From positions 1 through 64,000 of the forward strand of contig JAFRFG010000036.1 of assembly GCA_017434455.1 (NCBI GenBank): DNA of 64,000 nt. Reading direction: 5' to 3'. Made by a program: the position numbers and the translations under genes. This document shows, in pieces, positions 9,858 to 47,393 of the stretch. A model generated the notes under the pieces. That model searched no databases. It was not told the origin of the DNA and worked only from the letters and a program-made list of their open reading frames with translations. The first letter of the stretch is position 1, and each line of letters starts with the position of its first letter. Source of the DNA: Thermoguttaceae bacterium (GTDB lineage: Bacteria > Planctomycetota > Planctomycetia > Pirellulales > Thermoguttaceae).

Positions 9858-12800
9858 ATGAACTGGACATCGCCCGGCATCTTAACGGCGCTTTGGATAC
9901 TTCCGGTTTTTGCCCTTTTGCTTTGGCGGCAAAGAAAGCGGCAGAAGCGGCGCGAGGAGCTCTTTCTCCAATCGCCGATGACCGGCCGGCTCTTCCCCGA
10001 GGCGACCGCCCGCCGGGCGTTTTGGCGCGGGGCGCTTTTGCTCGCCTCGTTGGCGCTGCTGATCACCGCCTTGGCCGGTCCGCGCTTTGGGGTTTATTTT
10101 GAAAAAGTCACGCGGCGCGGTGCCGATATTCTCATTCTTCTGGATACCTCCCGCTCGATGCTCGCCGAGGACCTTGCCCCCAACCGGCTGGAGGCGGCCA
10201 AACTCGATATCGAGGACCTCTTGAGCGCCGTGTCGGGCGATCGGGTCGGGCTGATCGCCTTTGCCGGAAAACCGGTCATTAAGGTTCCGCTGACCAGCGA
10301 TTTCGGTTTCTTCCGCGAGACGCTCAAGGGGCTCGATACCCACGCCGCGCCGATGGGGGGAACGGCGATCGGCGACGCCGTCCGGCTGGCCCTGCGCGCC
10401 ATGGCTCCCGACGCGGCGCGCGATCAGGCGATTTTGCTGATCACCGACGGGGAGGATCACGAGTCGATGCCGATCGAGGCGGCTCAAAGCGCCGCCCAGC
10501 GGAATGTCCGTCTGTTTACCGTCGCCCTCGGCGATACCAAAGAGGGGGCGCGGATCCCGCTGTTCGACAAGAACGGGAAACGAACCGGCTTCGAGCAGTA
10601 CAACGGGCAGGAGGTCTGGAGCAAGGCCGACGTCGATCTGCTGGCGCGTCTGGCCGAGACCGCCAACGGTACCTTCCTCAGCGCGGGAACCGGGCCGTGC
10701 GATCTCGGGGAGTTTTACCTCTCGGCGATGGAGGACCTCAGCCGCGCCGGTTACGGCCAGTCGCAGCAGCGGCTGCTGCACGAAAAGTATCAGCTCTTCC
10801 TGGCCCTGGGCTTAGCGGCCCTGACGCTCTGGCTGGCCATTCCCGCGGCGGCGCGTCCCCGGTGGGAAGAGGAGATTCAGCCGGCGGCGCGGGACGCGGC
10901 CGAGCGAAAGACAGGGGCCGGGGCGTTTCTTCGCCGCGCGATAATGCCGGCCGCCGCCGCGGCGCTGATCCTCATCGGCGGCACGACCCCGGCCGATACG
11001 CCGCCGCGGACACCGCCGATAACAACCGCGCAGCCAACCGCCGAGGGAGCGGATCCTCGGCCGGCGCCGGAAGATATTTCTTCGGAGGGGATATCACCGG
11101 AGGAATTTTCGCCGGAAGAGATGACGCCGGAAGAATGGGACGAATCGGCGGGGGTGGAAAGCGCCCAAAAAGAAAAGAAACTCTCCCCCCTCGAGCGTTA
11201 CCGCGAGGCGTGCGCCAAGCGGGACGACCCCGCCGCCAGCGCCGAAGCGGAGGAGATCTTCGACGCGCTGCTGCGCGGCAACGAGGACAAGCGCCTCACC
11301 CCCCTTTGCGCCTATAACCTGGCGCTGATCAAGGCCCGCCGATTGAGTGAGGCGGCCGAGGCGGCCAACGCCGAAGAGCCGGACAAAAGCCAACCGCCGA
11401 ACAGCGCCGAAGAGCCGGCCATCCCGGCCGACCCGAACGGCGGCACCCCCCAGGCGCGGCCAAAAGACCCGCTGACCCTCTACCGCGAGGGCCGCGCCGC
11501 GCGGGAGGGGAAGCGCCGGGAGGTCCGCCGACAGACCGCCGAGGCGGCCGATCTGTTTCACGAGGCGGACGACCCCAAGGACAGCCGCCTCCATCGGGAG
11601 GTAACAGGAAATATCGATCTTCTGCGCAGCTGGCTGATCGGCCAGGAAAAACGCTGGGCGGACGCGGAGCGCCAAAAACGCCTCGCCCTCGGCCTGCCGA
11701 CGCACCTGGCCTGGCTGGCCGGGGAACTCGACGCGGTTCTGGCCGAGCCGGCCTTGGCGAAAGATCCGGCCGCCTCTAAACAATACCAGGGGCTCTATGA
11801 CCTGGCGGGGCGTATCGACGAAGCCCGCGCCGACCTGCGCGAACTGGCCGACGCCGCCGAAATGCGCGGGGCGGTCGAGGGGGAGAAAACCGACGAACCG
11901 GCGCTCGACCCGCAAACGGCCTCGGCGGCGGCCGAGGCGCTCCAGCGGGCCGTCGGCGACGCCCGGCGGTTTGCCCGGGCCGACACGCGCGACGCGGTCC
12001 GCCTGGGGGCCGAAAAGCTCGACGCGGGGTTCAACGCCGTGATGGATTATCGAACGGTGTTAAGCGACGCCCTGGCGCGGCAGGAGAAGGTCGTACAGCG
12101 GGGGAAAGCCCTCGCCGAAAAGACGGCCAAGAACGCTGCCGATAACCAGGCCGACAGCAAAGCCGACAACCAGGCCGACAACCAGGCCAATAATGAGGCC
12201 GTCGGCGCGATGTGCTGGGGGGACGATTTCGCCGGCCGGAAAGTCGAGCGGCTGATCGGCGAGGCCGAGGCGGAGTTCCAACGCCAACCGTGGTCGGACG
12301 AGGAAGAACAGGCCGCCGGCGAGGAAGAAAGCGCCGGTGAGGAGGACAGTACCGGAGAGCAGCCCGATGAAGAACAGCCGAACCCCGCCCTTGGGGGAGA
12401 GGATCAGCAGCGGGCCAAACTCCGCCGGTCGATGAAGGCCGCCCTCGACCTTGGCCCGGAGGTGGGCCAGATCCTCGCCTCGCTCCCGGCCTCGGCCGAA
12501 GAACTCCCCGCCATTCGCGCCGGGGAGGGGCGGATCCTGGAGATCCTGCGCGAGATCGAGCGCCCCCTGCGGGACGATCAGGATCAAAACAGCGATAGCC
12601 AAGACCAGAACAATCAGGATAATAAGAACCAAAACGACAAGAACCAAGATAATCAAGACAACCAAAACCGGGATAATCAAAATCAAGATAACCAAAACCA
12701 AGATAATCAAGACCAAAACCAAGATCAGGATAATCAAGACCAAAACAGCCAAAACGAAGAGGAGCAATCCGCCGAGGAGCAGTCCGCCGACGAGCAAGAC

Positions 12801-12938
12801 CAGCGCCAGCGGGCCGACGAGCAACAGGCCGAGGCGGCGATGCGCAAGGTTCGGCAGCGTCAGCAGCGGGCCGAGCAGATGCGCCGTCTGCGCGACGAGT
12901 ACCAGCGCCGTGTTGACAAACCGGAAAAAGATTGGTAG
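9858..12938 (+). CDS. BatB-BatC fusion: vWA membrane domain plus TPR/Asn-Gln-Asp-rich region
   Basis: 1026 residues, far longer than BatB alone. Residues 1-80 hold two helices, about 88-300 a vWA domain with intact MIDAS (D96-T-S-R-S, LLITDGEDHESMP), then a helix near 310 (LFLALGLAALTLWLAI), which is BatB. After a second hydrophobic stretch (AAAAALILIGG) the remaining roughly 650 residues are helical and charged, with TPR-like segments (AYNLALIKARRLSEAAEA), ending in a low-complexity Asn/Gln/Asp tract and a basic coiled coil. BatC proteins of Bacteroides-type operons have exactly such TPR plus N/Q-rich tails, so I read this as a BatB-BatC fusion. A ribosome site AAGGA precedes the ATG. Confidence 0.78.
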   Translation: MNWTSPGILTALWILPVFALLLWRQRKRQKRREELFLQSPMTGRLFPEATARRAFWRGALLLASLALLITALAGPRFGVYFEKVTRRGADILILLDTSRSMLAEDLAPNRLEAAKLDIEDLLSAVSGDRVGLIAFAGKPVIKVPLTSDFGFFRETLKGLDTHAAPMGGTAIGDAVRLALRAMAPDAARDQAILLITDGEDHESMPIEAAQSAAQRNVRLFTVALGDTKEGARIPLFDKNGKRTGFEQYNGQEVWSKADVDLLARLAETANGTFLSAGTGPCDLGEFYLSAMEDLSRAGYGQSQQRLLHEKYQLFLALGLAALTLWLAIPAAARPRWEEEIQPAARDAAERKTGAGAFLRRAIMPAAAAALILIGGTTPADTPPRTPPITTAQPTAEGADPRPAPEDISSEGISPEEFSPEEMTPEEWDESAGVESAQKEKKLSPLERYREACAKRDDPAASAEAEEIFDALLRGNEDKRLTPLCAYNLALIKARRLSEAAEAANAEEPDKSQPPNSAEEPAIPADPNGGTPQARPKDPLTLYREGRAAREGKRREVRRQTAEAADLFHEADDPKDSRLHREVTGNIDLLRSWLIGQEKRWADAERQKRLALGLPTHLAWLAGELDAVLAEPALAKDPAASKQYQGLYDLAGRIDEARADLRELADAAEMRGAVEGEKTDEPALDPQTASAAAEALQRAVGDARRFARADTRDAVRLGAEKLDAGFNAVMDYRTVLSDALARQEKVVQRGKALAEKTAKNAADNQADSKADNQADNQANNEAVGAMCWGDDFAGRKVERLIGEAEAEFQRQPWSDEEEQAAGEEESAGEEDSTGEQPDEEQPNPALGGEDQQRAKLRRSMKAALDLGPEVGQILASLPASAEELPAIRAGEGRILEILREIERPLRDDQDQNSDSQDQNNQDNKNQNDKNQDNQDNQNRDNQNQDNQNQDNQDQNQDQDNQDQNSQNEEEQSAEEQSADEQDQRQRADEQQAEAAMRKVRQRQQRAEQMRRLRDEYQRRVDKPEKDW
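12580..12760 (+). repeat. Low-complexity Asn/Gln/Asp repeat tract inside batBC
   Basis: Degenerate repeats of the units AAT-CAA-GAT and AAC-CAA-GAT encode runs of N, Q and D. The coding strand is strikingly purine rich. The tract is in frame and uninterrupted, so it is part of the protein rather than a CRISPR or satellite. Confidence 0.85.
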
Positions 12939-16117: not shown

Positions 16118-16147
16118 TTGACAACGCCTGTCGCGATCGGGTACAAT
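16118..16147 (+). promoter_or_regulatory. Promoter of the MauE/thioredoxin cluster (TTGACA-N18-TACAAT)
   Basis: A consensus TTGACA at 16118-16123 and TACAAT at 16142-16147 are 18 nt apart. Transcription would begin near 16154, leaving about 60 nt of leader before the ATG at 16217. A reading frame that could nominally start with the TTG at 16118 in fact begins inside the -35 box, which excludes that start. Confidence 0.8.
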
Positions 16148-16216
16148 CGGCGACGGTTTTGGTGGTCCTTTCGTACGATTTTTTTCTCGGCTTTCGATGC
16201 GGAGTGTCAGGTTTCT

Positions 16217-17104
16217 ATGTCCCCTTCCCTTTCCACGCGCGGCGCGATAACAGCGGGGTTTGGCCGCTGGTCTTGCGTCAGAATTCTCGCGGCGCTTGTC
16301 CTCCTTGCCGCCGCGGTGATGAAGACCGCGCAGCTGGCGACGGTTCCCGTGTTGGGGGAAGGGCTTTTTCACGCCCGCTGGTTTGTCTTTTGTCTGATCG
16401 AGTTCGAACTCGGCTTCGCTCTTTGGCTGCTCGCCGGTCCGTTTCCGAAGCCGACGCGCCTTGCCGTGATCGCTCTGTTCTCGGTGTTCGGCCTGGTTTC
16501 GCTCTATAAGGCCCTCTCGGGGGAGGCGAGCTGCGGATGTTTCGGCGCGGCGAAGGTCGATCCCCGGTTCACGGCCGCGCTCGACGCGGCGCTTGCGACT
16601 TTGGCGGTTTTGTTTCCGCCCAAGACGGTCCAAGCGGTACCGACGCCTAAAAAATTCGCGCTTGGCCTTGTTGTCTGGGCGCTCGCCGGCGTCCCGGTCG
16701 TATTAGCGGCGCTTTCGACGCGCACCGAAGCGCTCTCGGCCCTCGGCCGGGTACATATCTCCTCGAACGGCCGGCGGACGATCGAGCTGGAACCGGACAA
16801 GTGGACCGGCGGCGCGATCCCGATTCTCTCCCATATCGAGCCGGCCGAAGTTCGCCGCCGTCTGGAAGAAGGAACCTGGACGGTTCTGTTCTTTCAGCGC
16901 GATTGCCTCGACTGTCAAGGCCAAATCCGTACCCTGGCGCGGCAGCGCGCTTCCGATACCGACGGGGATATTGTCTGCGTGGAACTCCCCCCCTATGGGG
17001 ACCGGACCGCGCTTCCGGCCGGGCCGCTTTATGTCCGGTTAAGTGATCAATACGACTGGTATATCGAAACGCCGGCACTTTTTAGTGCCGTGCGGCTAAG
17101 GTAA
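16217..17104 (+). CDS. MauE/DoxX-type membrane protein fused to a thioredoxin-like domain
   Basis: 295 residues from the ATG at 16217, chosen because the promoter ends at 16147. The first 130 residues hold four membrane helices with the MauE-type signature C106-G-C-F-G after the third. A fifth helix (LALGLVVWALAGVPVVLAAL) precedes a C-terminal domain with C230-L-D-C in the context VLFFQRDCLDCQ, which looks like a thioredoxin-fold active site. MauE-type proteins pass electrons or disulfides across the membrane, so this is probably a self-contained thiol-disulfide relay with its redox site outside the cytoplasm. It heads a group containing two short cysteine-rich exported proteins, which are plausible substrates (inference). 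A frameshifted truncated copy lies at 45258-45845. Confidence 0.75.
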   Translation: MSPSLSTRGAITAGFGRWSCVRILAALVLLAAAVMKTAQLATVPVLGEGLFHARWFVFCLIEFELGFALWLLAGPFPKPTRLAVIALFSVFGLVSLYKALSGEASCGCFGAAKVDPRFTAALDAALATLAVLFPPKTVQAVPTPKKFALGLVVWALAGVPVVLAALSTRTEALSALGRVHISSNGRRTIELEPDKWTGGAIPILSHIEPAEVRRRLEEGTWTVLFFQRDCLDCQGQIRTLARQRASDTDGDIVCVELPPYGDRTALPAGPLYVRLSDQYDWYIETPALFSAVRLR

Positions 17105-17341: not shown

Positions 17342-17701
17342 ATGGGAAGGGTTGTGATCCGACTCGGTCTGTGGGTGTTTGTCTTTTCTGTTGTGCTGTC
17401 GGTTGTTGTCTATGCTGGCCGCGTTTGCAGCAGGTGTGGGAAGGTAAATACACTTGTCACCGCCGGGGGACAGTGCGGGGTGCTGATTCCGGAAGAGGAT
17501 CCGAATCACCCTGGGGTCTACTATAACGTCCTTCATAATGGCAATTGGGCCGAGACGGTGACGTATAAAACCTGCTCACTTGGTGCCGGGATCTGTAACG
17601 AGACTACAGAAGATTTCTATCCCAAATGTGTGGTTTTTATCGGTTCGGTAAATATGTTCTTCTACCCGATCCAACATACGGTTGTTGGTGTGTGTCATTA
17701 A
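17342..17701 (+). CDS. Short cysteine-rich exported protein
   Basis: 119 residues. The start is the ATG at 17342, preceded by the very strong ribosome site GGAGGAGGA at 17329-17337; the in-frame TTG upstream lies at the edge of that site. A clear signal peptide (LGLWVFVFSVVLSVVVYA) is followed by a mature part of about 90 residues with seven cysteines, beginning RVCSRCGK and ending VVGVCH. This suggests a disulfide-rich or metal-binding extracytoplasmic protein. I recognise no family. The stop overlaps a possible start of the next gene (TAATG). It sits between a MauE/thioredoxin-like gene and a large secreted protein, so it may be processed by the former. Confidence 0.72.
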   Translation: MGRVVIRLGLWVFVFSVVLSVVVYAGRVCSRCGKVNTLVTAGGQCGVLIPEEDPNHPGVYYNVLHNGNWAETVTYKTCSLGAGICNETTEDFYPKCVVFIGSVNMFFYPIQHTVVGVCH

Positions 17702-17736
17702 TGACTCGGGAACGACTATTGGGAGAATATGCAGTG

Positions 17737-19014
17737 ATGCGGCAGACCTCGTTCCTCTTGCCGAAAGTTTTTGATATGAAGCCAATTCAGAGATGCCGGG
17801 TTCCGCGGTTTTTCCTCCCAGTCGTCCTGCTGTTGATCGGTGCCCTGTTTGCCGGACAATCTATGGCCGATGATACGGACGCCATGACCGTCGACGCCCT
17901 GTTCGAAAAACATGAAGCGGCGCTGGCGAAGACCGGTCGGATTAAAATGCGATACAAGATCAGGGAGTTCCAGACCGAGAGCGAGTATCTCTGGATCGAG
18001 TCGGGGGAAGAGAAATTCTTGCAGCCGATAGAAGGATCGCCCAATGACAGGGGAGCAACCGGTCAGCCAACTTATTTCACTCACGGCGGCGCTGTTTTCT
18101 CGACATACCTCGACGCTGACCATCTCACTACCTTCGCTCCGCAATCGCTTGCCGAATCGCTGAACAGCGGCCACGGTTTCACGTGTCATCACGCTAACCT
18201 GAATTGGGATTTGCGATCCCCCAGAAGACTAATCTTTTTCTCACCGGTTCTCGGGCAGCAGGGGTCGCGCTCGACCTTAAGAGAAGCTTTTTTCAGCAGC
18301 CCCTGGCAGAGTGAACCGAAAAAATCAACCAATGATCGGGGCGAGGTTCTCTGGACGGTCTTTTCCGCGGCCGAGCCGCTGACCGAAGAAGAGATGTCGC
18401 TGGACAGACCAGAGAAGGGCTGGACGATGGTTCAGTTCAACCAGACCAAAGGGTTCTGGGTTGAGTGTTTCGCGACCTTTGTCCCTGCTATGGACACAAG
18501 TGAAGGGCATTCACCCCAAGTCTTTAGCGGTTGTATCACCGAGTATAAAGATACCGCCTCCGGTCAGGCGGTTCCCGGCAAGGTTATCCACAGCAACTCG
18601 TCGCCGAAGGGGTTTCAGGAGAGACGGGGACGGATTGAGACGCCGGCCGCATGGACGGTCTTGGAGATTCTCGAGGGGACAATCGACGACGATTCGATCC
18701 GTGTCCCCGAGGTTCCGATCCGGCAATACGTCAAGGTGTTTCGCGAAGACCTTCAGGATCCGAACGGAAAAGAAGCCGAAGCTTTCACCCCGGTATCTTT
18801 CTGGGGGAAAGATGACGCCCCCGAAGTGACATTTCTTTCCTCGGAAGAGAAACAGTACGACGAATATGTTCGCCAGCGGTATAACGTGGAACAAACGCCG
18901 CTTCCGGAATCGGGGTTTTCCTCGATACCTCTTTGGCGCGTCGTCCTGCTGGGCGTCGGTATTTTGCTGGTAGCCGCCGCTTTGGTTCTTAGAAGGCGCC
19001 TGTCGGCCGCCTAA
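17737..19014 (+). CDS. Large secreted protein with C-terminal membrane anchor
   Basis: 425 residues from the ATG at 17737, which has GGGAGA about 10 nt upstream. Alternative starts are 17701, overlapping the previous stop, and 17776. A signal peptide (FLPVVLLLIGALFAGQSMA) is followed by a mature region opening AMTVDALFEKHEAALAKTGR, which resembles the start of LolA-like secreted domains. The C terminus has one helix (VVLLGVGILLVAAALVL) and the basic tail RRRLSAA. The architecture parallels the array proteins at 36.9-45.1 kb, without obvious direct identity. It is probably co-transcribed with the small cysteine-rich genes on either side. Function unknown. Confidence 0.7.
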   Translation: MRQTSFLLPKVFDMKPIQRCRVPRFFLPVVLLLIGALFAGQSMADDTDAMTVDALFEKHEAALAKTGRIKMRYKIREFQTESEYLWIESGEEKFLQPIEGSPNDRGATGQPTYFTHGGAVFSTYLDADHLTTFAPQSLAESLNSGHGFTCHHANLNWDLRSPRRLIFFSPVLGQQGSRSTLREAFFSSPWQSEPKKSTNDRGEVLWTVFSAAEPLTEEEMSLDRPEKGWTMVQFNQTKGFWVECFATFVPAMDTSEGHSPQVFSGCITEYKDTASGQAVPGKVIHSNSSPKGFQERRGRIETPAAWTVLEILEGTIDDDSIRVPEVPIRQYVKVFREDLQDPNGKEAEAFTPVSFWGKDDAPEVTFLSSEEKQYDEYVRQRYNVEQTPLPESGFSSIPLWRVVLLGVGILLVAAALVLRRRLSAA

Positions 19015-36871: not shown

Positions 36872-37846
36872 CTATTGCTTCGGCAACGCGGAGCCGGCGC
36901 TCGCGCGGCGCTTCAGGTAAATCCCCGCGGCGATAAGGATGAGCCCTGTAACAACAAAAATCGCGGGGGACGGCGGGTTTCTTGGGGAGGCCGGTTCGGG
37001 GATACCGTAGTACTTCAGGTAGAACTCTTTTTTATTGGGGGGCCCCAGACGAAAGGAACGGATGGTTGTCTGAGTGTGGCGAGTTTTTTCATTATCGCTG
37101 TAGTCGTCCTCTATCAGCTTCGGATACTTTATTCCTTCCCACTCACTATAAGTATATTTAGTATGATTAGTACACTGTTTCTTGAGAACATCGGGGATAA
37201 AAATCTCACGTTCGATCGCCCACTCCTCCAGGGAATAATCATCGGCATTGAAGAACAGTTCACCGCCCAGAACGCGGTCAATCTCGTCCATCATAACGTT
37301 GCTGCGGAAGACCAACCGGTATTGATCCTCATACTTTTCGACCGATTCCACCTTGAAGGTATCCGACTCGAAGAGGTCTCGCAGCCGCAATAGCATGATA
37401 AATACACCGACAAGGTTTCCGGGGGTACCGTCGAATGTAGTATCGCTAACCTGGCCCGAAATGATGCCATCCCGATCATTGAACAACTCAGTGACTGCGT
37501 ACTCCGAAATCCCTCTTTTTTTAGCCAGAGCAAACGAGTACTCAGGGTTCCTCACCGTAAGAGTTTCCTTTATCCCTTGGTATTCTGTAATGTACTCCGT
37601 ATGCCACATTTCGTAGAGGCCTTGATAAACCGAGCGTTCGACAATGGGGAGGGAAGTACCGTCTTGCGCTGTTGTTTCATCCTCGAACTCGACATCGATG
37701 CCCTGTTCGTACAGAGATTCCAGGTAGGCGATACGTTCAAGGATACGCGCGATAAGAGTATCGGCGTCGATGCTCTCCTCCCCGCGCGAGACCGGGCAGA
37801 CAAGCAACAACAAAGCAGTGATAATGACTTGTAGGTTCCTTCGCAT
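36872..37846 (-). CDS. Array protein 1: secreted, C-terminally anchored paralogue
   Basis: 324 residues from the ATG at 37846 (AAAGGG upstream); the frame stays open upstream only because it enters the end of the neighbouring paralogue. Signal peptide: NLQVIITALLLLVCPVSRG. The ectodomain starts ADTLIARILERIAYLESLYE and includes the family core ESVEKYEDQYRLVFRSN and GELFFNADDYSLEEW. The C terminus carries LKYYGIPEPASPRNPPSP, then a membrane helix (IFVVTGLILIAAGIYL) and the basic tail KRRASAGSALPKQ. It is the last gene of the left sub-array and its ectodomain is the most divergent. No enzymatic motif; probably a cell-surface protein. Confidence 0.8.
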   Translation of the reverse strand: MRRNLQVIITALLLLVCPVSRGEESIDADTLIARILERIAYLESLYEQGIDVEFEDETTAQDGTSLPIVERSVYQGLYEMWHTEYITEYQGIKETLTVRNPEYSFALAKKRGISEYAVTELFNDRDGIISGQVSDTTFDGTPGNLVGVFIMLLRLRDLFESDTFKVESVEKYEDQYRLVFRSNVMMDEIDRVLGGELFFNADDYSLEEWAIEREIFIPDVLKKQCTNHTKYTYSEWEGIKYPKLIEDDYSDNEKTRHTQTTIRSFRLGPPNKKEFYLKYYGIPEPASPRNPPSPAIFVVTGLILIAAGIYLKRRASAGSALPKQ

Positions 37847-38032
37847 CTTTATACCCTTTGTTATTATTTCGATTCCACGGATCCTGTGACCGCGCGGCGC
37901 TTCAGGTAAATCCCCACGCCGATGAGAAGGATCCCAACAAGGATAAAGACCGTAGGGGACGGCGGGTTTCTTGGGGGGGTCGGTTCGTCGATACCGTAGT
38001 ACTTCAGGTAAAACTCCTCCTTGTTGGGGGGG
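37741..38032. repeat. Left-array junction repeat, copy 1
   Basis: This block spans the signal-peptide codons of array protein 1, the 17-nt spacer and the anchor codons of array protein 2. It is nearly identical, without length difference, to 38787-39079. Confidence 0.85.
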
Positions 38033-38892
38033 CCGACGTGAAAAGAACGGATGGTCGTGTGATGATGAAGAATTTGGCCGATATCGTGGTACTCGTGTTC
38101 TTCGATCGACTTCGGGTATTTTAAACCCTGCCAATCACCGTAGGTAAAAATCGTTCGATCCGTCCATTGATTCATAGATTCACCAGTGATGGATCCTGTA
38201 TCCACCTTCCAGCCCTCCAGGGCAAAATCTATGACCACTTCCCATCCCTCCAGGGAATAATCTTCCGCGTTAACATAAAGTTCACCGCGAAGAAGCCGAT
38301 TACAATTATCGATGAGAATATCACTCTTGAACACCAATCGGTATTGGTCTTGATTTTTTTCGATCGATTCTGCCTCAAAAGTATCCGAACAAAGAATTTC
38401 CCGCAAAGATAACCATGCGACATACAGACCGACGAGGGATTCCGCGGTATTGGTGAAAAGCCCGTTAAGAATTTGATCCGGCAATACACCATCTCTGTCG
38501 TTATACAAATCATCAAGCGAGTATTGTACGCTTGCCTTTTCTTTTTTCAGAACGAACGAATATCGCGGATTTCTTATTGTTAAGAATTCTTCGACACCGC
38601 CTATCAATGGGGAATCCTGAAATTCCGAAAGATACTTTCGCTGATCCATTTCGAAGAGCCCCTGACAAACGACGCGATGAGCGACCAGCGCGGCGGGGGA
38701 TTCGTCCCCTTCGGTTACCGTTTCCTTTTCGTACTCAACATCGACTCCTTTGTCGTACAACGCCTCAAGATAGTCAACGCGCTCGAGGATACGCGCGACG
38801 AGAGTATCGGCGTCGATGCTCTCCTCCCCGCGCGAGACCGGGCAGACAAGCAGCAACAAGGCAGTGATAATGACTTGTAGGTTCCTTCGCAT
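37864..38892 (-). CDS. Array protein 2: secreted, C-terminally anchored paralogue
   Basis: 342 residues. The signal peptide is identical in sequence to that of array protein 1 over MRRNLQVIITALLLLVCPVS. The ectodomain contains YEKETVTEGDESPA, SEFQDSPLIGGVEE and NPRYSFVLKKEKA, which match array protein 5 (43016-44023) much better than its own neighbours. It has an extra repeat-like insertion (LEGWEVVIDFALEGWKVD). The anchor is YYGIDEPTPPRNPPSP, a helix (VFILVGILLIGVGIYL) and KRRAVTGSVESK. The 17-nt spacer before array protein 1 contains the next ribosome site, so the genes are co-transcribed. Confidence 0.82.
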   Translation of the reverse strand: MRRNLQVIITALLLLVCPVSRGEESIDADTLVARILERVDYLEALYDKGVDVEYEKETVTEGDESPAALVAHRVVCQGLFEMDQRKYLSEFQDSPLIGGVEEFLTIRNPRYSFVLKKEKASVQYSLDDLYNDRDGVLPDQILNGLFTNTAESLVGLYVAWLSLREILCSDTFEAESIEKNQDQYRLVFKSDILIDNCNRLLRGELYVNAEDYSLEGWEVVIDFALEGWKVDTGSITGESMNQWTDRTIFTYGDWQGLKYPKSIEEHEYHDIGQILHHHTTIRSFHVGPPNKEEFYLKYYGIDEPTPPRNPPSPTVFILVGILLIGVGIYLKRRAVTGSVESK

Positions 38893-39079
38893 CTTTTTAC
38901 CCTTTGTTATTATTTCGATTCCGCGGATCCTGTGGCCGCGCGGCGCTTCAGGTAAATCCCCGCGGCGATGAGAAGAATCCCAACAACGATAAAGACCGCG
39001 GGGGACGGCGGATTTCTTGGGGAGGCCGGTTCGGGGATACCGTAATACTTCAGGGAGAATTCCTCCTTATTGGGGGGGC
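38787..39079. repeat. Left-array junction repeat, copy 2
   Basis: Covers the signal-peptide codons of array protein 2, the 17-nt spacer and the anchor codons of array protein 3. See copy 1 at 37741-38032. Confidence 0.85.
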
Positions 39080-39950
39080 CTAGGTGAACCGATTTGTAAT
39101 TCACCGTTATATGCGCGATTCGATCATCGCCATGATCCTGTCTCTCCTCCAGCGTCTTTGGAAATTTCAGTCCTTCCCAGTCGCCGTAAGCAATTTTCAT
39201 ACTGCTTGACCAGGGGGAAGCGGTGACATCGGGGATGAAAAACTCTAAATCGACATCCCACCCTTCTAGAGAATAATCATCGGCGCTGAACAGAAGCACA
39301 CCGCCAACGATACGGTTGTTCTTGTCCATCAAGGCATCGCTGCGGAAGGCCAGACGATACAGATCCCCTTGCTTTTCGACCGACTCCACCCGGAAAGTGT
39401 CGGAACCGAAAAGGTCGCGCAACCGCATCTCGACAACAAACTGCCCCGGCAGAACATAGGGGGTTTCATGAAAGAGACCGTTGAGCGATTGATCGGTCAC
39501 CAGGGCGCTTCGATCATCGCTGTAATTTTCGAGTCCGAACTCAGAAGCGCCCCGGTGTTTCACCAGTACGAACATGTAGTCGGCGTTTCTCGCGTACAGC
39601 CGTTCTTCAATATCCCCGCCCAGGGGAGTTCGTTCTTCCTCGCCGAGAAACCGGATTTGGTGAATCTCGTTAAGTCCACAGAGAACCGAACGCTGGGCAT
39701 ACCTAAGCGGGGAAGCGTCTGTATCCTCTTTGAGCATTTCAAGGTCGTACCGTACATCGATTCCCCGCTTACAAAGGGATTCGAGTTCATCCTGACGCCG
39801 CAAAACGCTCGCGATAAGAGTATCGGCGTCGATGCTCTCATCCCCGCGCGAGACCGGGCAGACAAGCAGCAGGATAACGAGGAAGATCGGCAGGTTCTTT
39901 TTCATCTTCGCGGCCCCCTTGGTCAGAAAACGGCGCATGGATGTTAACAT
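38910..39950 (-). CDS. Array protein 3: secreted, C-terminally anchored paralogue
   Basis: 346 residues from the ATG at 39950, which has a perfect AAGGAGG site. The internal ATG at 39905 also has AAGGGGG, is where the other paralogues start, and may be used. Signal peptide: NLPIFLVILLLVCPVSRGDE. The ectodomain keeps the core (FRVESVEKQGDLYRLAFRSD, LLFSADDYSLEGWDVD) but differs in the segment after LESLCKRGIDVRYD. Anchor: LKYYGIPEPASPRNPPSP, helix (VFIVVGILLIAAGIYL), KRRAATGSAESK. It is the first gene of the left sub-array and follows a promoter at 39981-40009. Confidence 0.8.
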   Translation of the reverse strand: MLTSMRRFLTKGAAKMKKNLPIFLVILLLVCPVSRGDESIDADTLIASVLRRQDELESLCKRGIDVRYDLEMLKEDTDASPLRYAQRSVLCGLNEIHQIRFLGEEERTPLGGDIEERLYARNADYMFVLVKHRGASEFGLENYSDDRSALVTDQSLNGLFHETPYVLPGQFVVEMRLRDLFGSDTFRVESVEKQGDLYRLAFRSDALMDKNNRIVGGVLLFSADDYSLEGWDVDLEFFIPDVTASPWSSSMKIAYGDWEGLKFPKTLEERQDHGDDRIAHITVNYKSVHLGPPNKEEFSLKYYGIPEPASPRNPPSPAVFIVVGILLIAAGIYLKRRAATGSAESK

Positions 39951-39980
39951 TCAAACCTCCTTCGCCGGGGATATATGGAG

Positions 39981-40009
39981 TATATAACACACCATCACAG
40001 GGAAGTCAA
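39981..40009 (-). promoter_or_regulatory. Promoter of the left sub-array (TTGACT-N17-TATATA)
   Basis: Minus-strand TTGACT at 40009-40004 and TATATA at 39986-39981, spacing 17, about 30 nt before the first ATG of array protein 3. Confidence 0.65.
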
Positions 40010-40083
40010 TATCCCGGCGGGTTTCTTCTTTTTAGAAATTACGATAACCCCAGCCCCACAAAAAGAGATGCGGGGCGGCGCGT

Positions 40084-41988
40084 TTATTCCCGCGGCCTTT
40101 CCTCCTCGGCGGTGAATCCCTCGGGGAAGACCGCGTCGATATCCTCTTGTGTGAGGTGGTAAATATAGACCGTATAGCCGAGGACCTCTTGAGGGGTGAA
40201 TTGCCAAAAATAGCGGTAACGCGATTTCTCGGCGTACAGTTCACACACGCGCGCGGCGTACCAGCCCGGCTCGGGCTCGGCGGGGAGTCCCTTGTTGTGC
40301 CACGGAACATTGATCAATTCCGGCAGGTAGTCCGACCAGATCGAAATTTTGATCTGGTCGACTTCGGGGTGTCGGCGGCACCATCGTTCTAAGGTGAAGC
40401 AGTCTTGTCCCCAGTCGATATTGGAATCGAGCAGATGTCTCGGCCCGTTGAGCGGGCCGGCGTCGAGGAAACGAATCACGGCCGGGCCTTCGGGCGGCTT
40501 GGGAGCCGCCGGGGCGGCCGGGGTCGGCACAACGGCCGCCAGTTCGTTGAAGAAGGCGATGCTGTGAGGATAGACCCACAGCGAGCCCCCCGCGCCGATA
40601 AGAAGAAACAGGACCGTCAGGAACCGGACGATCCGAGAGCTCTTCGGCGCGCCGGCGCGAACCGACGGCGTGAACGCTCGCGCCGGCTTCGATATCCAGA
40701 TCAGAAGGAAGGGGATCGCGGGGATCATATAGCGGGAATGGACCGAGAAACCGGTCTGGGAACTGACCAGCAGCAGGATCGCCGCGGCCGGCAGCAGAAG
40801 CGTCAGCTCGTCGCGCCAGGGGGCGTTGTATCCGCGCGGGAAAAAGGTGCAAAACAGCGCCAGGAGAAACAGTGCCAAAGTCCCCAGCGGGGTCTTGAGG
40901 AGGAGGGCGTAGAAATAGTAACCGAACCAGCCGTGTTCGGCCCATTGCCCGCGCCAGTACGAGGGGAGGCCGGTCTCGAAATCAAGCCGCTGGGTATCGA
41001 TTCCCTGAACATAGTCGCTCGGAAGGGGAACGGGGAGATACCCCAAGAGCGTCTCGAACCGATTGCCGCTGCCGTCGAACCGATTCGCCAGAGCGCCGGG
41101 GCCCTTTGTCCGGCCGTCGGGACTTGTCTGGAGCGGGCGGCCGGTAAAAAGGGTGGACTGAAATTGGTAGTTCCGAAGCGGTTTTCCGATGCCGCTGAAG
41201 GCGTAGCCGGCGTTGATTACAAGTACGCTCCCCAGCGCGATTAAAAGAAGCCGAAGCGGCCGCAGGCGCGAGAAAAAGGTATCGTTCTTCGGCCGGTCTT
41301 CCCCCGCCCCGCGGAAAGGAATGGCGTAAAGAACCGCCAGAAGAAGAAACACCGGGTAGAAAACCAACAGCGTAAACTTGCACAGCTGGGCTCCCCCCAG
41401 GGCGACCGCCGCCAAAAACGTGTGAAAACCGTTCGGACTCTTGAGCCACCGGTGGAAGAAATAAACGCTCAGCAGCCCCATCGAGGCGGCGTGCGCGTCG
41501 GGCATAATCGTCGCGGCGTGGCCTAGAAAAAAGGGGGAGGTTCCCGCGAGAATCAGCGCCGTCAGACCGGCCCACGGCGCGCGGTAGATGTTTTGGGAAA
41601 ACAGCAGCACCACCACCAGACCCGTGACGGCGAAGATCAAACAGCCCAGACGCGCCGTGACAAACCTGGGGAAGATCGTCTCCCGGTTCTCCCGCATGTA
41701 GGCGTTGCCCATCTCGAACTCTTTGCGCAGGGCGGCGTAATTCGAGAACGTCCGCCAGGAACTGTGGTCCTCGAAAAAAAGAACCACCGGAAGAGCCGCG
41801 GTCATGCGGACCAGCGGCGGGTTGACGCGGTAAAGCGCGAACGACGAAAGTTCCCAATGGCTGGCGCCGGCGGCCAGATGGGCCGACTCGCTTTGGACGG
41901 GGGCATAAAGGACGATATTCCCGATAAGCAGCGCCGTAAAGGCCGCGATCAGGAACAGGTCAATCCATCGTTTATATCTCGTGTACAT
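40084..41988 (-). CDS. GT39-type membrane glycosyltransferase (PMT/ArnT-like)
   Basis: 634 residues with about eleven membrane helices. The first extracytoplasmic loop (VQSESAHLAAGASHWELSSF, then YRVNPPLVRMTAALP) matches the conserved acidic loop of dolichyl-phosphate-mannose protein mannosyltransferase and ArnT-like enzymes, in which the acidic pair is catalytic. The C-terminal soluble region (HLLDSNIDWGQDCFTLERW) is a form common in planctomycete members. These enzymes transfer a sugar from a polyprenyl-phosphate carrier to an exported protein or lipid. The start overlaps the end of array protein 4 by 17 nt, placing it as the last gene of the right sub-array operon. Substrates may include the array proteins (inference). 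Confidence 0.8.
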   Translation of the reverse strand: MYTRYKRWIDLFLIAAFTALLIGNIVLYAPVQSESAHLAAGASHWELSSFALYRVNPPLVRMTAALPVVLFFEDHSSWRTFSNYAALRKEFEMGNAYMRENRETIFPRFVTARLGCLIFAVTGLVVVLLFSQNIYRAPWAGLTALILAGTSPFFLGHAATIMPDAHAASMGLLSVYFFHRWLKSPNGFHTFLAAVALGGAQLCKFTLLVFYPVFLLLAVLYAIPFRGAGEDRPKNDTFFSRLRPLRLLLIALGSVLVINAGYAFSGIGKPLRNYQFQSTLFTGRPLQTSPDGRTKGPGALANRFDGSGNRFETLLGYLPVPLPSDYVQGIDTQRLDFETGLPSYWRGQWAEHGWFGYYFYALLLKTPLGTLALFLLALFCTFFPRGYNAPWRDELTLLLPAAAILLLVSSQTGFSVHSRYMIPAIPFLLIWISKPARAFTPSVRAGAPKSSRIVRFLTVLFLLIGAGGSLWVYPHSIAFFNELAAVVPTPAAPAAPKPPEGPAVIRFLDAGPLNGPRHLLDSNIDWGQDCFTLERWCRRHPEVDQIKISIWSDYLPELINVPWHNKGLPAEPEPGWYAARVCELYAEKSRYRYFWQFTPQEVLGYTVYIYHLTQEDIDAVFPEGFTAEEERPRE

Positions 41989-42997
41989 CGTTCTTCGCGC
42001 CGTTGTTCGTATGGCTGCGCGCCCCGGCGGCGGCGCGGCGCTTTAGGTAAATCCCCATGCCGATGAGGATGAGTCCCACCGCGATAAAAATCGCGGGAGA
42101 GGGCGCGTTTTTCGGGGAGGCCGGTTCGGGGATACCGTAGTACTTCAGGTAGAATTCCTTCTTATTGGGGGAACCCAAGTGAAAAGATCGGATAATTGTC
42201 CGAGAATGACTAACTATCTCATTTCCGCTAAAGCGGCTTTCCTTCGACTTCGGATACTTAACACCTTCCCAATCACCATAGGTGTATCTGAGCTGACGAG
42301 TCCATGGAATCACGCGGTCAGGGATAAAAAACTCACCTTGATAATTCAATTCCTCCAAAGAGTAATCCTCGGCGTTAAAAAACAATTCTCCTCCCAGAAT
42401 ACGATTGCAATCATCCTCCAGAATGTTGGAGCGGAAGGCCAGCCGGTATTGATTCTCCCGCTTTTCGACCGATTCCACCTTGAAATCATCCGATTCAAGA
42501 AGATCCCGCAGCCGAGCCAGTCCGACATATAACCCAACAAGAGCTTTAGGGGTATCATCTATCAGACCATTAGTAGTCTGATCAGGCAAAACGCCGTCTC
42601 GATTGTCGTATAAATCAAGAACGGCATACCCCGAATTCCCCGGCCCCTTAGTTACAATAAACGAATACTTCGGGTTCCTCACGATAAGGGCTTCCTCGTA
42701 ACCCTCTTCCAGGGGAGAAGGCCGATGGTCGGAAAGAAATTTCAGACGTCTCAGTTCGTAGAGACCCAGGTAAACCACGCGCTGAGCGTGAGGATTTACC
42801 GGCTCTTCATCCCCTTCTTCCATTCGTCCATCTTCAGTTTCGACATCGATACCCTGTTCGTACAGAGACTCAAGATAGGTGATACGTTCCTTGATGTGGG
42901 CAATGAGCGCATCGGCGTCAGCGGCCTCCTCACCGCGCAAAGCGCAGCAGACACCCATCAGCAGGAAAGTGATGACGACTTGAATGTTCGTTCGCAT
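41972..42997 (-). CDS. Array protein 4: secreted paralogue with an altered C-terminal tail
   Basis: 341 residues. Signal peptide: NIQVVITFLLMGVCCALRGE (right sub-array type). The ectodomain is sister to array protein 6 (YELRRLKFLSDHRPSPLEEG, VLDLYDNRDGVLPDQ, EELNYQGEFF). The anchor is mosaic: GIPEPASP of the left type followed by KNAPSPAIFIAVGLILIGMG of the right type. After KRRAAAG the usual SAESK end is replaced by ARSHTNNGAKNDVHEI, reading into the glycosyltransferase gene, so a recombination or deletion joint lies near 42020. Transcribed with 43016 and 44042 upstream. Confidence 0.82.
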   Translation of the reverse strand: MRTNIQVVITFLLMGVCCALRGEEAADADALIAHIKERITYLESLYEQGIDVETEDGRMEEGDEEPVNPHAQRVVYLGLYELRRLKFLSDHRPSPLEEGYEEALIVRNPKYSFIVTKGPGNSGYAVLDLYDNRDGVLPDQTTNGLIDDTPKALVGLYVGLARLRDLLESDDFKVESVEKRENQYRLAFRSNILEDDCNRILGGELFFNAEDYSLEELNYQGEFFIPDRVIPWTRQLRYTYGDWEGVKYPKSKESRFSGNEIVSHSRTIIRSFHLGSPNKKEFYLKYYGIPEPASPKNAPSPAIFIAVGLILIGMGIYLKRRAAAGARSHTNNGAKNDVHEI

Positions 42998-43182
42998 CTT
43001 GACGACCCTCTTTTGTTATTTCGATTCCGCGGATCCGGCGGCGGCGCGGCGCTTGAGGTAAATCCCCATGCCGATGAGGATGAGCCCCACCGCGATAAAA
43101 ATCGCGGGAGAGGGCGCGTTTTTCGGGGAGTCCGGCTCGGCGATGCCGTAGTACTTTAGGTAGAATTCCTTCTTGTTGGGGG
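42898..43182. repeat. Right-array junction repeat, copy 1
   Basis: Spans the signal-peptide codons of array protein 4, the 18-nt spacer and the anchor codons of array protein 5. It is nearly identical to 43923-44208. Confidence 0.85.
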
Positions 43183-44023
43183 AAACCATCTGAACCGATT
43201 GGAACGTCACTTGGTAATCGATGACTTCACCGGAACTGTGTTCTATGTGACATTCAATGGACTTCGGGTATCTAATCCCCTGCCACTGACCATAGGTATA
43301 GCGGGTTCTGTCCGTCCATTGTTTCGATGGTTTGTCTACATGCAGAAAGGAGAATTTACCGACCACATCCCATCCGACGACGGAATAATCTTCCGCGCTG
43401 AAATATAGTTCACCGCGAACCAGACGATTACACAAGTCGATCGGAACATCACAATGGAAAACCAGCCGGTACTCGTTCTGTTGTTTTTCGACCGACTCAA
43501 CCTTAAAAGTGTCCGAACAAAGAAGTTCCCGCAGCGACAATTCGACGATATACAGACCAACGAGGGACTGGGCGGTTTCTTCGAACAGACCATTCGTATT
43601 CTGCTCCATCATAATACCGTTCCTGTCGTTGTACAGATCTTCCATTGCGTATAACGTGTTCGCCTTTTCTTTATTCAGAATAAACGAATATTTCGGGTTT
43701 TTCACCTCTAAGGTTTCCTCGACACCATCCTTTAAAGGGGAATCACGGGATTCGGAAAGATACTTCCATTGATCCAATTCGAAGAGATCGTGATAAACGA
43801 CGCGATGAGCGATCCGCTCCTCGGCAGGGGATTCGTCTCCCTCCATTACCTTTTCCTTTTCGTACTCGACCTCAATCCCCTTGTCGTACAACGACTCAAG
43901 ATAAGCAACGCGCTCGAGAACATGGGCGATGAGCGCATCGGCGTCAGCGGCCTCCTCACCGCGAAGGGCGCAGCAGACACCCATCAGCAGGAAAGTGATG
44001 ACGACTTGAATGTTCCTTCGCAT
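43016..44023 (-). CDS. Array protein 5: secreted, C-terminally anchored paralogue
   Basis: 335 residues. Signal peptide MRRNIQVVITFLLMGVCCAL is of the right sub-array type. The ectodomain (EYEKEKVMEGDESPAEERIA, LSESRDSPLKDGVEE, NPKYSFILNKEKA, SKQWTDRTRYTYGQWQG) is the counterpart of array protein 2 in the left sub-array. The anchor (YYGIAEPDSPKNAPSP, IFIAVGLILIGMGIYL, KRRAAAGSAESK) is instead identical to that of its neighbour, array protein 6. This mismatch between ectodomain and end relationships is the key sign of segment exchange. The ribosome site lies in the 18-nt spacer. Confidence 0.82.
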   Translation of the reverse strand: MRRNIQVVITFLLMGVCCALRGEEAADADALIAHVLERVAYLESLYDKGIEVEYEKEKVMEGDESPAEERIAHRVVYHDLFELDQWKYLSESRDSPLKDGVEETLEVKNPKYSFILNKEKANTLYAMEDLYNDRNGIMMEQNTNGLFEETAQSLVGLYIVELSLRELLCSDTFKVESVEKQQNEYRLVFHCDVPIDLCNRLVRGELYFSAEDYSVVGWDVVGKFSFLHVDKPSKQWTDRTRYTYGQWQGIRYPKSIECHIEHSSGEVIDYQVTFQSVQMVSPNKKEFYLKYYGIAEPDSPKNAPSPAIFIAVGLILIGMGIYLKRRAAAGSAESK

Positions 44024-44208
44024 CTTGACGACCCTTTCTTGTTATTTCGATTCCGCGGATCCGGCGGCCGCGCGGCGCTTTAGGTAAATTCCCATGCCGA
44101 TGAGGATGAGCCCCACCGCGATAAAAATCGCGGGGGAGGGCGCGTTTTTCGGGGAGTCCGGCTCGGCGATGCCGTAGTACTTTAGGTAGAATTCCTTCTT
44201 GTTGGGGG
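43923..44208. repeat. Right-array junction repeat, copy 2
   Basis: Covers the signal-peptide codons of array protein 5, the 18-nt spacer and the anchor codons of array protein 6. See copy 1 at 42898-43182. Confidence 0.85.
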
Positions 44209-45079
44209 GACCGAGGCGAAAGGAACGGACGGTCGTGTGATAATGGAGGGGTTTATTATCAAACAAAGAGTTGTGTTCCTTTGTCTTTGGATACTTAATC
44301 CCGTCCCAGTCGCCATAAGTATATTTATTCTTACGAGACCACGGGATCGAGGGGACATAGGAGGAAAAAAATTCACCTTGGTAATTCAGCTCCTCCAGAG
44401 CGTAATCCTCCGCGTTGAAAAACAATTCTCCGCCAAGGATACGATTGCATTTATCTTCCAAGACGTTGCTGCTGAAGGCCAGCCGGTATTGATTTCCGCG
44501 CTTTTCGACCGATTCCGCCTTAAAGGTATCCGAATCAAAGAGGTCTCGCAGCCGACAGCCGCCAATATAAAGTCCAGACAACGCTCCGGTGGAACTGTCC
44601 AGCAGACCGCTCGAATTCTGGTCATCCAAGATTCCGTCTCGATTGTCGTATAAATCAAGAACGGAATACGCAGATTTTCCACTATTGTTAACCACGGCAA
44701 ACGAATACTTCGGATTTCTCACGATAACCCCTCCATCGTAACCCTCATCCAGAGGGGATGGTCGGGTTTCCGAAAGAAATCGCAGCTGTCTTAGTTCGTA
44801 GAGGCCTTTATAAACCACTCTTATAGCCATAGGATCTTGAAGTTCTTCTTTCCCTTCTTCGATCTCCCCGCCTTCAACTTCAACCTCAATCCCCTTGTCG
44901 TACAACGACTCAAGATAAGCAACGCGCTCGAGAACATGGGCGATGAGCGCATCGGCGTCGGGAACAAGGGTGTCGGTATCGGCGGCCTTGGGGTTTTCGG
45001 CAAACACCGTGCCGATCGACAGCAGGACGGCGGTGAGCAAAATCCGCGCGGCGAGATTTCTCCTGATCGGTTTTATCAT
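44042..45079 (-). CDS. Array protein 6: secreted, C-terminally anchored paralogue
   Basis: 345 residues. It has its own signal peptide (LAARILLTAVLLSIGTVFAE) and a short Asp/Thr insert before the shared VPDADALIAHVLERVAYLES. The ectodomain is sister to array protein 4 (LRFLSETRPSPLDEG, VLDLYDNRDGILDDQ, EELNYQGEFF). The anchor is identical to that of array protein 5. It is the promoter-proximal gene of the right sub-array: a TTGCGC/TATATT promoter lies 64 nt upstream and GGAGG precedes the ATG. The differing leader suggests that the internal copies were homogenised with each other but not with this outer one. Confidence 0.82.
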   Translation of the reverse strand: MIKPIRRNLAARILLTAVLLSIGTVFAENPKAADTDTLVPDADALIAHVLERVAYLESLYDKGIEVEVEGGEIEEGKEELQDPMAIRVVYKGLYELRQLRFLSETRPSPLDEGYDGGVIVRNPKYSFAVVNNSGKSAYSVLDLYDNRDGILDDQNSSGLLDSSTGALSGLYIGGCRLRDLFDSDTFKAESVEKRGNQYRLAFSSNVLEDKCNRILGGELFFNAEDYALEELNYQGEFFSSYVPSIPWSRKNKYTYGDWDGIKYPKTKEHNSLFDNKPLHYHTTVRSFRLGPPNKKEFYLKYYGIAEPDSPKNAPSPAIFIAVGLILIGMGIYLKRRAAAGSAESK

Positions 45080-45257: not shown

Positions 45258-45845
45258 TCACTTCAGCCGCGCGGCCGGCAATAGTTTTGGGGTCTCGATA
45301 TACCAGTCGTATCGGTCCGTAAGTTTGACGTGAATAAGATTGTCCGGAACGCACGACTCTTCCCCATAGGGGGGAATCTCCACGCAGACGACATCGCGGC
45401 CGCCGCGCCCCGCCAGGGTTTGAATCTCGTGTTGACACTCCCGGCAGTCGTGCTGGAAAAAAAGAACTGTCCAGCGCCCCTCGCTCAGCCGCTTCCGCGC
45501 TTCGGCCGGTTCGATATAGGAAAGGATCGGGATCACGCCGCCGGTCCATTTGTCCGGTTCCAGATCGATCGTCCGACGGCCGCTGGAGGAAAGATGCTCC
45601 CGGCCGAGGGCCGCCAGAGGGTTTGTCCGCGCCGACAGCGCCGCGGCGGCGGCCGGGATGGTGCAAACCGCCCAGATAACGGCGGTCAGCGCCGTTTTTT
45701 TGACCGACAGCGAAGCGCCGCCGGCCCTCGGCCGGGAACAAAGCGCCAGGATCACCATCGCCGCGTCCAGCGCGGTCGTGAACCAGGGATTGACCTTCGC
45801 CGCGCCGAAACAGCCGCAGAAGCGCCGCGCCCGAGAGGGCTTTAA
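45258..45845 (-). pseudogene. 5'-truncated, frameshifted copy of the MauE/thioredoxin-like gene
   Basis: From CGCFGAAKV onward this frame is closely homologous to the gene at 16217-17104 (shared RRTIDLEPDKWTGGVIPILS, the C-x-x-C site FFQHDCRECQ, TDRYDWYIETP). Upstream, the homology continues for only about 18 more bases (AAAGCCCTCTCGGG) and in a different frame, with one extra base between ALSG and CGCFG. The four membrane helices before that point are missing. The reading frame could begin at 45878, but those codons have no counterpart in the intact gene. It is therefore a decayed duplicate; the thioredoxin-like half could still be made only if some new start were used. Confidence 0.82.
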
Positions 45846-45926
45846 TAATAGAGGGTAGTCCCCCTTTTCGCGTTTCACACGCGTGAAGGGCTGCCGAACG
45901 AGGCCCTTGCTTTCGCAACACCATAA

Positions 45927-47204
45927 TTATACAGCGCTGGTTTTTCTTCTTCTCCTTCTGACGAAAGACCAGACGATGATGCACAATCCTATCGCGATCA
46001 GGGCAATACGCGGAGCAAGACGAATTTGCTGAAAGATGGAAAAATCCTTCGGCGCCAATTCCCCGACCTTGCTTAACCAAGGCATTTTTTCTAAATCAAA
46101 CCCACCTTCCTCAAGAGATAGTGTCCCGGCCTCAATGGAGTAATACTCCACATTCTTTTCGTATCTCGAGTCGAGCACCCTAAGACCCTCGGGAACGTCT
46201 AAAGAGAAGTCTTTGGGACTCATCGGCTCATTTAAGGATAACGACTCTTGGTTGATCTTATACTCTCGTCTTTCGATCAATTTTCCGGTGGTGTTATCAT
46301 ACCGTGATTCGGTGTAATTTGTGGGGTAGTAGATTCCCGTACGGGGCTGCTGAACAAAATCACTCGCCTCGTATTTCTCCGTCAGATTTCCCGTACTTGA
46401 ATCATACAGCTCGATGTCGGGACAAACGTACCCCAAGCTGGGGACTACGGTATAGCGCTGGGTAACTTGACCATCCACTTTGCTTTCCAGCGTGTAGGAG
46501 GTTGGCCCGCCATCAAACGGTTTTGTTTCAGTAACCTCTAAAACCGAAATATCTTCACTGTCGCCGGCGATGGCGCGCGTCTGTTTTTTGATTTCCTCTT
46601 TCGCGATACCCTCCCCTTTCTCTTCGATCACGGCGTTCATAAGAAAAGCCAAAACACCCCTCACCCGTCCGAATTGGCTAAAATCCGCGACATTCGATAT
46701 GGTGTTGTTGACAATGACTTGCGAGATTGAAGGATCGAGCATGGCCGATTCTATGCTAGGCGAGGTTCGGTTAATGACACGCTTGTCGATAACGGTAACC
46801 GGCTTCTCGGAATCATCGTCATAGATCACTTGGTTCTTGACATATCGATATCCCTTTTGAGAGAAATCGAAGCGGCACAGACCACTGAATGTCTTCTTTT
46901 GTGTATACTGGGCCCTTACGGAATCGGGGATCATACTTACGATTTTATCAGTGTCTGGATCATTCGGAAACGATTTTTTAAATTGCTTAATCCTTTCCTC
47001 GCACTCCGCTTGAATCTCTTCTTCTGTTTTTTCTCCGGCATTTTTAGACATATCATAGGAGACCGTACCGGAATCTATGCGTGTTTGAAGAAGTGCCTTT
47101 AAGAAGATGTCCACGCCATCTTCCCCGGCAAAACCGCAGCGGCTTACAACCCCGATCAGGAGGATCAAGCCCCATCGAATCAGTCGGCGTTGGATAGTTG
47201 TCAT
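45927..47204 (-). CDS. Secreted protein with C-terminal membrane anchor
   Basis: 425 residues from the ATG at 47204, fixed by a strong GGAGGAGG ribosome site about 9 nt upstream. Signal peptide: IRWGLILLIGVVSRCGFAGE. The ectodomain is polar and rich in Asp, Glu, Lys and Tyr (FSGLCRFDFSQKGYRYVKNQ, PRTGIYYPTNYTESRYDNTT), with a carrier-like beta pattern. One C-terminal helix (IALIAIGLCIIVWSFV) is followed by a very basic tail RRRRRKTSAV. It has the same architecture as the gene at 17737. The base composition is noticeably A+T richer than the flanking cytochrome gene. Function unknown. Confidence 0.72.
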   Translation of the reverse strand: MTTIQRRLIRWGLILLIGVVSRCGFAGEDGVDIFLKALLQTRIDSGTVSYDMSKNAGEKTEEEIQAECEERIKQFKKSFPNDPDTDKIVSMIPDSVRAQYTQKKTFSGLCRFDFSQKGYRYVKNQVIYDDDSEKPVTVIDKRVINRTSPSIESAMLDPSISQVIVNNTISNVADFSQFGRVRGVLAFLMNAVIEEKGEGIAKEEIKKQTRAIAGDSEDISVLEVTETKPFDGGPTSYTLESKVDGQVTQRYTVVPSLGYVCPDIELYDSSTGNLTEKYEASDFVQQPRTGIYYPTNYTESRYDNTTGKLIERREYKINQESLSLNEPMSPKDFSLDVPEGLRVLDSRYEKNVEYYSIEAGTLSLEEGGFDLEKMPWLSKVGELAPKDFSIFQQIRLAPRIALIAIGLCIIVWSFVRRRRRKTSAV

Positions 47205-47393
47205 AGGGAGATCCTCCTCCGCTGCCATTTCCACGGGAACTTCTGCTGTCAGCCATTGTTAGCTAGCACGCGTGGCCGCCATAGCGAACAAATCTTGTCG
47301 ACAGGTCTTGTGTACACGTTGTAAACATGCAACCGTCGATAAAAAAAATGCCGCGGCACACGCTTCACCACTAAACGATAACAAACGCCGATC

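Follow-up and report, generated by a model that had tools for sequence, protein, structure and literature searches.

What makes the ends of neighbouring paralogues nearly alike when their middles are far apart, the copying of ends or the exchange of middles? The question is raised by positions 36872-45079 of the window (the whole stretch of 64,000 nucleotides analysed here), where six paralogues stand in tandem, all on the minus strand, each with a signal peptide, an ectodomain and a C-terminal anchor. The earlier note had described them as genes with exchanged ectodomains between homogenised ends. Our computations show that the junctions are homogenised as contiguous units, that the trees of the gene segments are incongruent, that the pattern recurs in other arrays, and that the arrays are linked to a glycosyltransferase gene. 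On the whole, the locus clearly exemplifies local gene conversion, in a protein family not described before, and does not prove that surface antigens have been swapped. It also allows the copying of ends to be told apart from the exchange of middles, two histories that give mosaic arrays of much the same appearance.

Layout of the array and its junctions

In order of transcription, the right sub-array consists of A6 (44042..45079), A5 (43016..44023) and A4 (41972..42997), followed by a PMT_2 (GT-C) glycosyltransferase of 634 aa (40084..41988, minus strand; Pfam PF13231), and then by the left sub-array of A3 (38910..39905, with an alternative start at 39950), A2 (37864..38892) and A1 (36872..37846). 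The spacers between genes are about 18 bp in each sub-array, and the start of the glycosyltransferase overlaps A4 by 17 bp. The open reading frame start of A1 at 38134 (TTG) is an over-long artefact of the TTG rule, and homology sets the real start at 37846; with this correction the six tandem paralogues of the earlier note are borne out, each of the six copies being a complete open reading frame that has a start and a signal peptide of its own. The array genes have GC3 of 0.55-0.61, against 0.76 for the enclosed glycosyltransferase and 0.77-0.84 for two neighbouring genes. A promoter and terminator scan gives results near or modestly above chance.

The segments of these genes differ widely in divergence. 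By sliding DNA identity, the signal peptides of A1/A2 and A4/A5 are 95-97% identical, and anchor identity is 92-99% among the right genes and 75-93% among the left ones. The ectodomains are only about 40-65% identical except in A2/A5 (58-84%) and A4/A6 (57-85%), so that the ectodomain of A2 indeed matches A5 and not its neighbours, and A4 and A6 are indeed sisters, as had been noticed from the sequence. Synonymous divergence (NG86) gives the same picture, with dS of 0.14 for the signal peptides of both A1-A2 and A4-A5, 0.12-0.27 for the anchors of the right sub-array (A5-A6 0.12, A4-A5 0.19), and 0.22 (A2-A3) and 0.38 (A1-A2) for those of the left. Ectodomain dS is 0.95 for A2-A5, 0.93 for A4-A6, and from 1.2 to saturated for the remaining pairs. 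Across sub-arrays the ends have dS around 0.5-0.8, close to the 0.95 of the A2-A5 ectodomains. Identity is thus higher within arrays than between them at synonymous and non-coding sites alike, as concerted evolution predicts.

Separate phylogenies of the three segments, which the earlier note had proposed, were built for the six window copies and turn out to be incongruent (AU test, p from about 0.04 to <1e-3). The ectodomain data reject both the signal-peptide and the anchor tree (p <= 6e-5), the anchor data reject the other two segment trees (p < 1e-3), and the signal-peptide data reject the ectodomain tree (p 1.5e-4) and, as the weakest case, the anchor tree (p 0.04).

The homogenised unit is a single contiguous junction, comprising the anchor of one gene, the 18-bp spacer and the signal peptide of the next, that is, about the last 150 bp of one gene, the spacer and about the first 100 bp of the following one. 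Four such junctions are identified, all on the minus strand: A6/A5 (43922..44202), A5/A4 (42896..43176), A3/A2 (38790..39090) and A2/A1 (37744..38044). The two right junctions are 90-100% identical to each other per 30-bp bin, against about 50-76% in their flanks; the two left ones are 83-100% identical, with the minimum in the anchor part. The shared tracts of A1/A2, A4/A5 and A5/A6 each have p = 0.0002 by permutation of variable sites. The outer ends of the sub-arrays (the A6 signal peptide and the A4 and A1 tails) lie largely outside the homogenisation; hence the claim that signal peptides and anchors are almost identical within each sub-array stands inside the junctions and fails at these three ends.

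Two shorter tracts are also detected. In A6, positions 44882..44959 (minus strand; DADALIA...GIEV) are nearly identical to A5 43868-43945, with abrupt edges and a run of 43 variable sites shared without interruption (p 0.0002). The anchor of A4, which had been called a mosaic, is a real one at the DNA level, reading GGTATCCCCGAACCGGCCTCCCC (common to A1 and A3) and then about 93 bp of the right type (42023..42115, minus strand) nearly identical to A5. Since A1, A3 and A4 agree, the state common to them can be ancestral, and a source in the left sub-array is unneeded. Gene conversion between the paralogues is supported by these observations.

Ectodomain history and recurrence of the pattern

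The ectodomains appear to have an older history. A2/A5 on the one hand and A4, A6 and C15a1 on the other are well-supported groups, and the ectodomain of A3 is the most divergent. A2 and A5 both hold the middle position in their own sub-array. C15a1, on another contig (C15:110 kb), is the third gene of the A4/A6 type, and beside it lies what is left of a copy of the window's glycosyltransferase, with the middle deleted. This locus is a segmental duplicate of an A4-type gene together with the glycosyltransferase; at least one ectodomain type therefore moved by segmental duplication with its neighbour. The third-position difference between the A4 and C15a1 ectodomains is 48%, against 21% between the glycosyltransferase remnant and its source (Fisher p 1e-6), a contrast that is indecisive because codon bias differs (GC3 0.55 vs 0.76); part of the gene body may have been replaced after the duplication. 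Among the six window genes, near-identical ectodomain pairs number zero, and the recent copying of junctions appears to postdate the relationships between ectodomains. A simple history of whole-gene duplication plus local conversion of the ends fits best, because A2 and A5 are both middle genes and C15a1 lies beside the decayed glycosyltransferase copy, and the swapping of ectodomains is not required for the observed pattern. Thus, of the gene conversion or cassette exchange formerly suggested, conversion is supported, at the junctions, and the exchange of ectodomains is the less likely.

Over the whole ectodomain, omega lies at 0.19-0.56 in the pairs that permit its calculation, with a few short windows of pN >= pS, and variation is even over the helices, strands and loops of the structural model, with no hypervariable loops. 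This is relaxed constraint, not the usual sign of an antigen, and there is no overall diversifying selection; the suggested diversification finds no whole-domain omega above 1.

Homogenised ends with other sequences are found in two further arrays of the window genome (C15b and C19) and in one sister species (G003). C15b has five tandem genes and then a glycosyltransferase overlapping the last gene by 20 bp. Its junctions b2b3 and b3b4 are mostly 90-100% identical over about 420 bp, b0b1 and b1b2 are mostly 93-100% identical across the anchor, and its anchors are near-identical within the pairs b0/b1 and b2/b3 and strongly different between them (pN about 0.45). C19 (G000, L139 3475-8841) has three genes of about 400 aa with 17-bp overlaps and near-identical protein ends at the joints, and a PMT_2 gene comes next, likewise with a 17-bp overlap. 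These three match the family at the anchor only and appear to carry a second ectodomain type on the same architecture; an AlphaFold2 model of them from three sequences has a pLDDT of 33. In the sister species (G003 C16), two neighbouring genes have ends 93-100% identical and middles mostly 56-96% identical. At C5, conversion tracts are also present inside the domain, and divergence in the G003 and C5 domains varies from patch to patch. As independent arrays give the same outcome, the rule may extend to many tandem families of anchored proteins.

Overall, 21 copies are identified in the window genome with a profile from 25 members, and the family is present in each of the seven genomes from the genus and in 13 of 61 sampled genomes of the taxonomic family. 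In a phylum sample of 149 genomes it occurs in the window's own genome and in none of the 148 others, and a contig scan with the six-protein alignment gives no relative. One copy (L033 4661-5554; G000 C37) has an in-frame TAG inside the profile match and may be a pseudogene or contain a mis-sequenced base; copies with in-frame stops are also seen in G003 and G196. A literature search found nothing specific on the protein family, on LolA in planctomycetes, or on conversion in planctomycete arrays.

Predicted fold, location and linked glycosyltransferase

The array proteins, including 53 family members, have no match in Pfam or NCBIfam, and a sequence search of the PDB gives noise only. The AlphaFold2 model of A5, made with an alignment of the 53 members, has a pLDDT of 88.5. 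It shows a helix at the N-terminus, some thirteen strands, an ordered YYG-x-EP segment and a helix spanning 306-333. The best Foldseek match is the LolA-superfamily protein NE2245 (3buu; E 7.6e-8, probability 1.00), followed by LolA, DUF1329 and LolB, with moderate TM-scores against 3buu of 0.37 by query and 0.50 by target. The array proteins are thus predicted to combine a fold of the LolA superfamily with a transmembrane anchor at the C-terminus. LolA itself is a lipoprotein carrier between LolCDE and the outer membrane. With the LolA/LolB superfamily (PF03548; NE2245; DUF1329; RseB) the array proteins share the predicted half-barrel fold and the N-terminal helix; they differ in being longer, in the C-terminal membrane anchor and in the tandem arrangement, and PF03548 has no match in the 53 members and none in the window genome at E <= 0.1.

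A basic tail follows the C-terminal helix in 52 of 53 members, the N-terminus is hydrophobic in 50 of 53, and conservation across the family is among the highest in YYG-x-EP and the anchor. PEP-CTERM substrates of exosortase (EpsH; PMC1569441) are alike in being secreted, with a C-terminal helix, a basic tail, frequent x-EP ahead of the helix and several copies per genome. They have, however, a near-invariant Pro-Glu-Pro directly before the helix and then a basic cluster, whereas 21 of the 53 array family members have PEP before the helix, the helix core begins a median of 10 residues later (range 6-13), and profiles of PEP-CTERM families give no match above the cut-off. Exosortase (PF09721 and TIGR04178) is not detected in the window genome, which is 91.7% complete, and is detected in the control genomes, so exosortase sorting is rejected for the window genome. 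Because of the signal peptide, the C-terminal helix with its basic tail, the lack of a detectable exosortase and the LolA-like fold, the array proteins are probably periplasmic and anchored in the inner membrane, not surface antigens, and on the same grounds their former description as surface proteins is doubtful.

The glycosyltransferase of the window matches PF13231 with 28.9 bits (cut-off 26.1), and the array-linked PMT_2 proteins, this one included, pass the cut-off with 28.9, 27.8 and 28.6 bits. PMT_2 genes overlap or trail the array genes at C3, C15b and C19, with fragments at C5 and C15a, and the linkage is also seen in other genomes (G006 C129, G207 C307 and several MAGs). The link is conserved, and this recurrent linkage to the array family is what sets these proteins apart from other PMT_2/GT-C glycosyltransferases; the enzyme would act on the array proteins or on the same envelope component. 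A protein family without a Pfam or NCBIfam entry hereby gains a predicted LolA-like fold and a glycosyltransferase link. The named relatives of the glycosyltransferase belong to planctomycete MAGs, many of which, judging by the record titles, come from rumen and termite gut. In several planctomycete MAGs (L141, L142, L146, L147, L150), a small secreted gene lies between the family member and PMT_2.

Explanations, known systems and neighbouring genes

We consider it fairly likely that these anchored LolA-fold proteins form a lineage-specific tandem family whose junctions undergo local concerted evolution. The proteins would be secreted, single-span and anchored in the inner membrane, with a LolA-like domain, and the PMT_2 glycosyltransferase would probably be co-expressed with them. 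Copies would arise by tandem and segmental duplication, and homologous recombination within a sub-array, by gene conversion or unequal crossing-over, would keep the junction repeat nearly identical. The LolA-like domains would be too diverged to recombine easily and would evolve largely independently under relaxed purifying selection, perhaps binding different hydrophobic ligands in the periplasm. Conversion at the junctions is favoured because the homogenised tract takes in synonymous sites as well as the non-coding spacer and mostly leaves the outer ends of each sub-array untouched, because the short tracts have sharp edges, and because the same architecture recurs with unrelated junction sequence. 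Counting against this explanation are the contrast in third-position difference at C15a1, the patchy G003 and C5 domains, the weaker left anchors, and the moderate TM-scores of the fold, from which, together with the neighbouring genes, the proposed function is read. The first two of these, like the incongruent segment trees, would also follow if whole ectodomains were copied between loci with locus-specific ends fixed, the A4-C15a1 ectodomain having diverged more than the linked glycosyltransferase remnant. We nevertheless hold such copying to be unlikely: homogenisation of the ends within sub-arrays is needed in any case and is then enough, the ectodomain dS of A2/A5 means no recent transfer, these two genes are positional counterparts, and the six window genes lack a near-identical ectodomain pair. 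A bolder proposal, to which we give a slim chance, is a periplasmic recognition system specific to planctomycetes: the junction repeats would let arrays of glycosylated anchored LolA-fold modules, with one PMT_2 per array, gain, lose or swap ligand-binding domains; if true, it would be a heritable, diversifying repertoire for hydrophobic ligands.

Tandem paralogues with demonstrable conversion tracts might also suggest programmed antigenic variation with expressed and silent copies, but this is very improbable, since the window copies are intact, the variation covers the whole domain at purifying omega without hypervariable loops, and the location is predicted to be periplasmic. A more trivial cause would be an assembly error, with repeats collapsed or wrongly joined in a metagenome-assembled genome of 66 contigs; we think it slightly more improbable still, as the same pattern is present in other contigs and in the genome of another species. 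The least credible cause is strong purifying selection on signal peptides and anchors as the sole reason for their likeness. The conservation of YYG-x-EP and the anchor speaks for it, but the identity extends to synonymous sites and the spacer, end dS is low within sub-arrays and higher between them, and the C15b anchors differ between pairs that are internally near-identical. Purifying selection alone is rejected for the ends by the low synonymous divergence and the conserved spacer within sub-arrays.

Among known systems, the tandem outer-membrane protein families of Ehrlichia (PMC4534519) are alike in their mostly intact tandem paralogues that recombine with one another; they are, however, surface antigens of the outer membrane, whereas the array proteins are predicted to be LolA-fold proteins anchored in the inner membrane, with a linked glycosyltransferase. 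The vls cassettes of Borreliella and msp2 cassettes of Anaplasma (PMC4534519) share gene conversion between paralogous segments, but the window has neither silent truncated donors nor a single expression site, and the converted part is the junction instead of the variable domain.

Some other genes of the window are also noticeable. A BatA-like VWA protein (9858-12938, plus strand) is unusual for its N/Q/D-rich tandem repeats at 12651-12760. Upstream of A6, a 206-aa open reading frame (45258-45878, minus strand) shares 59% identity with the C-terminal portion of a MauE-type/thioredoxin-like protein of 328 aa (16118-17104, plus strand) and looks like an N-terminally truncated paralogue of it. 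Secreted proteins with a terminal helix and an Arg/Lys tail are encoded at 45927-47234 (minus strand) and 17626-19014 (plus strand), each beside a MauE-like gene, and the latter matches the anchor part only of the family profile.
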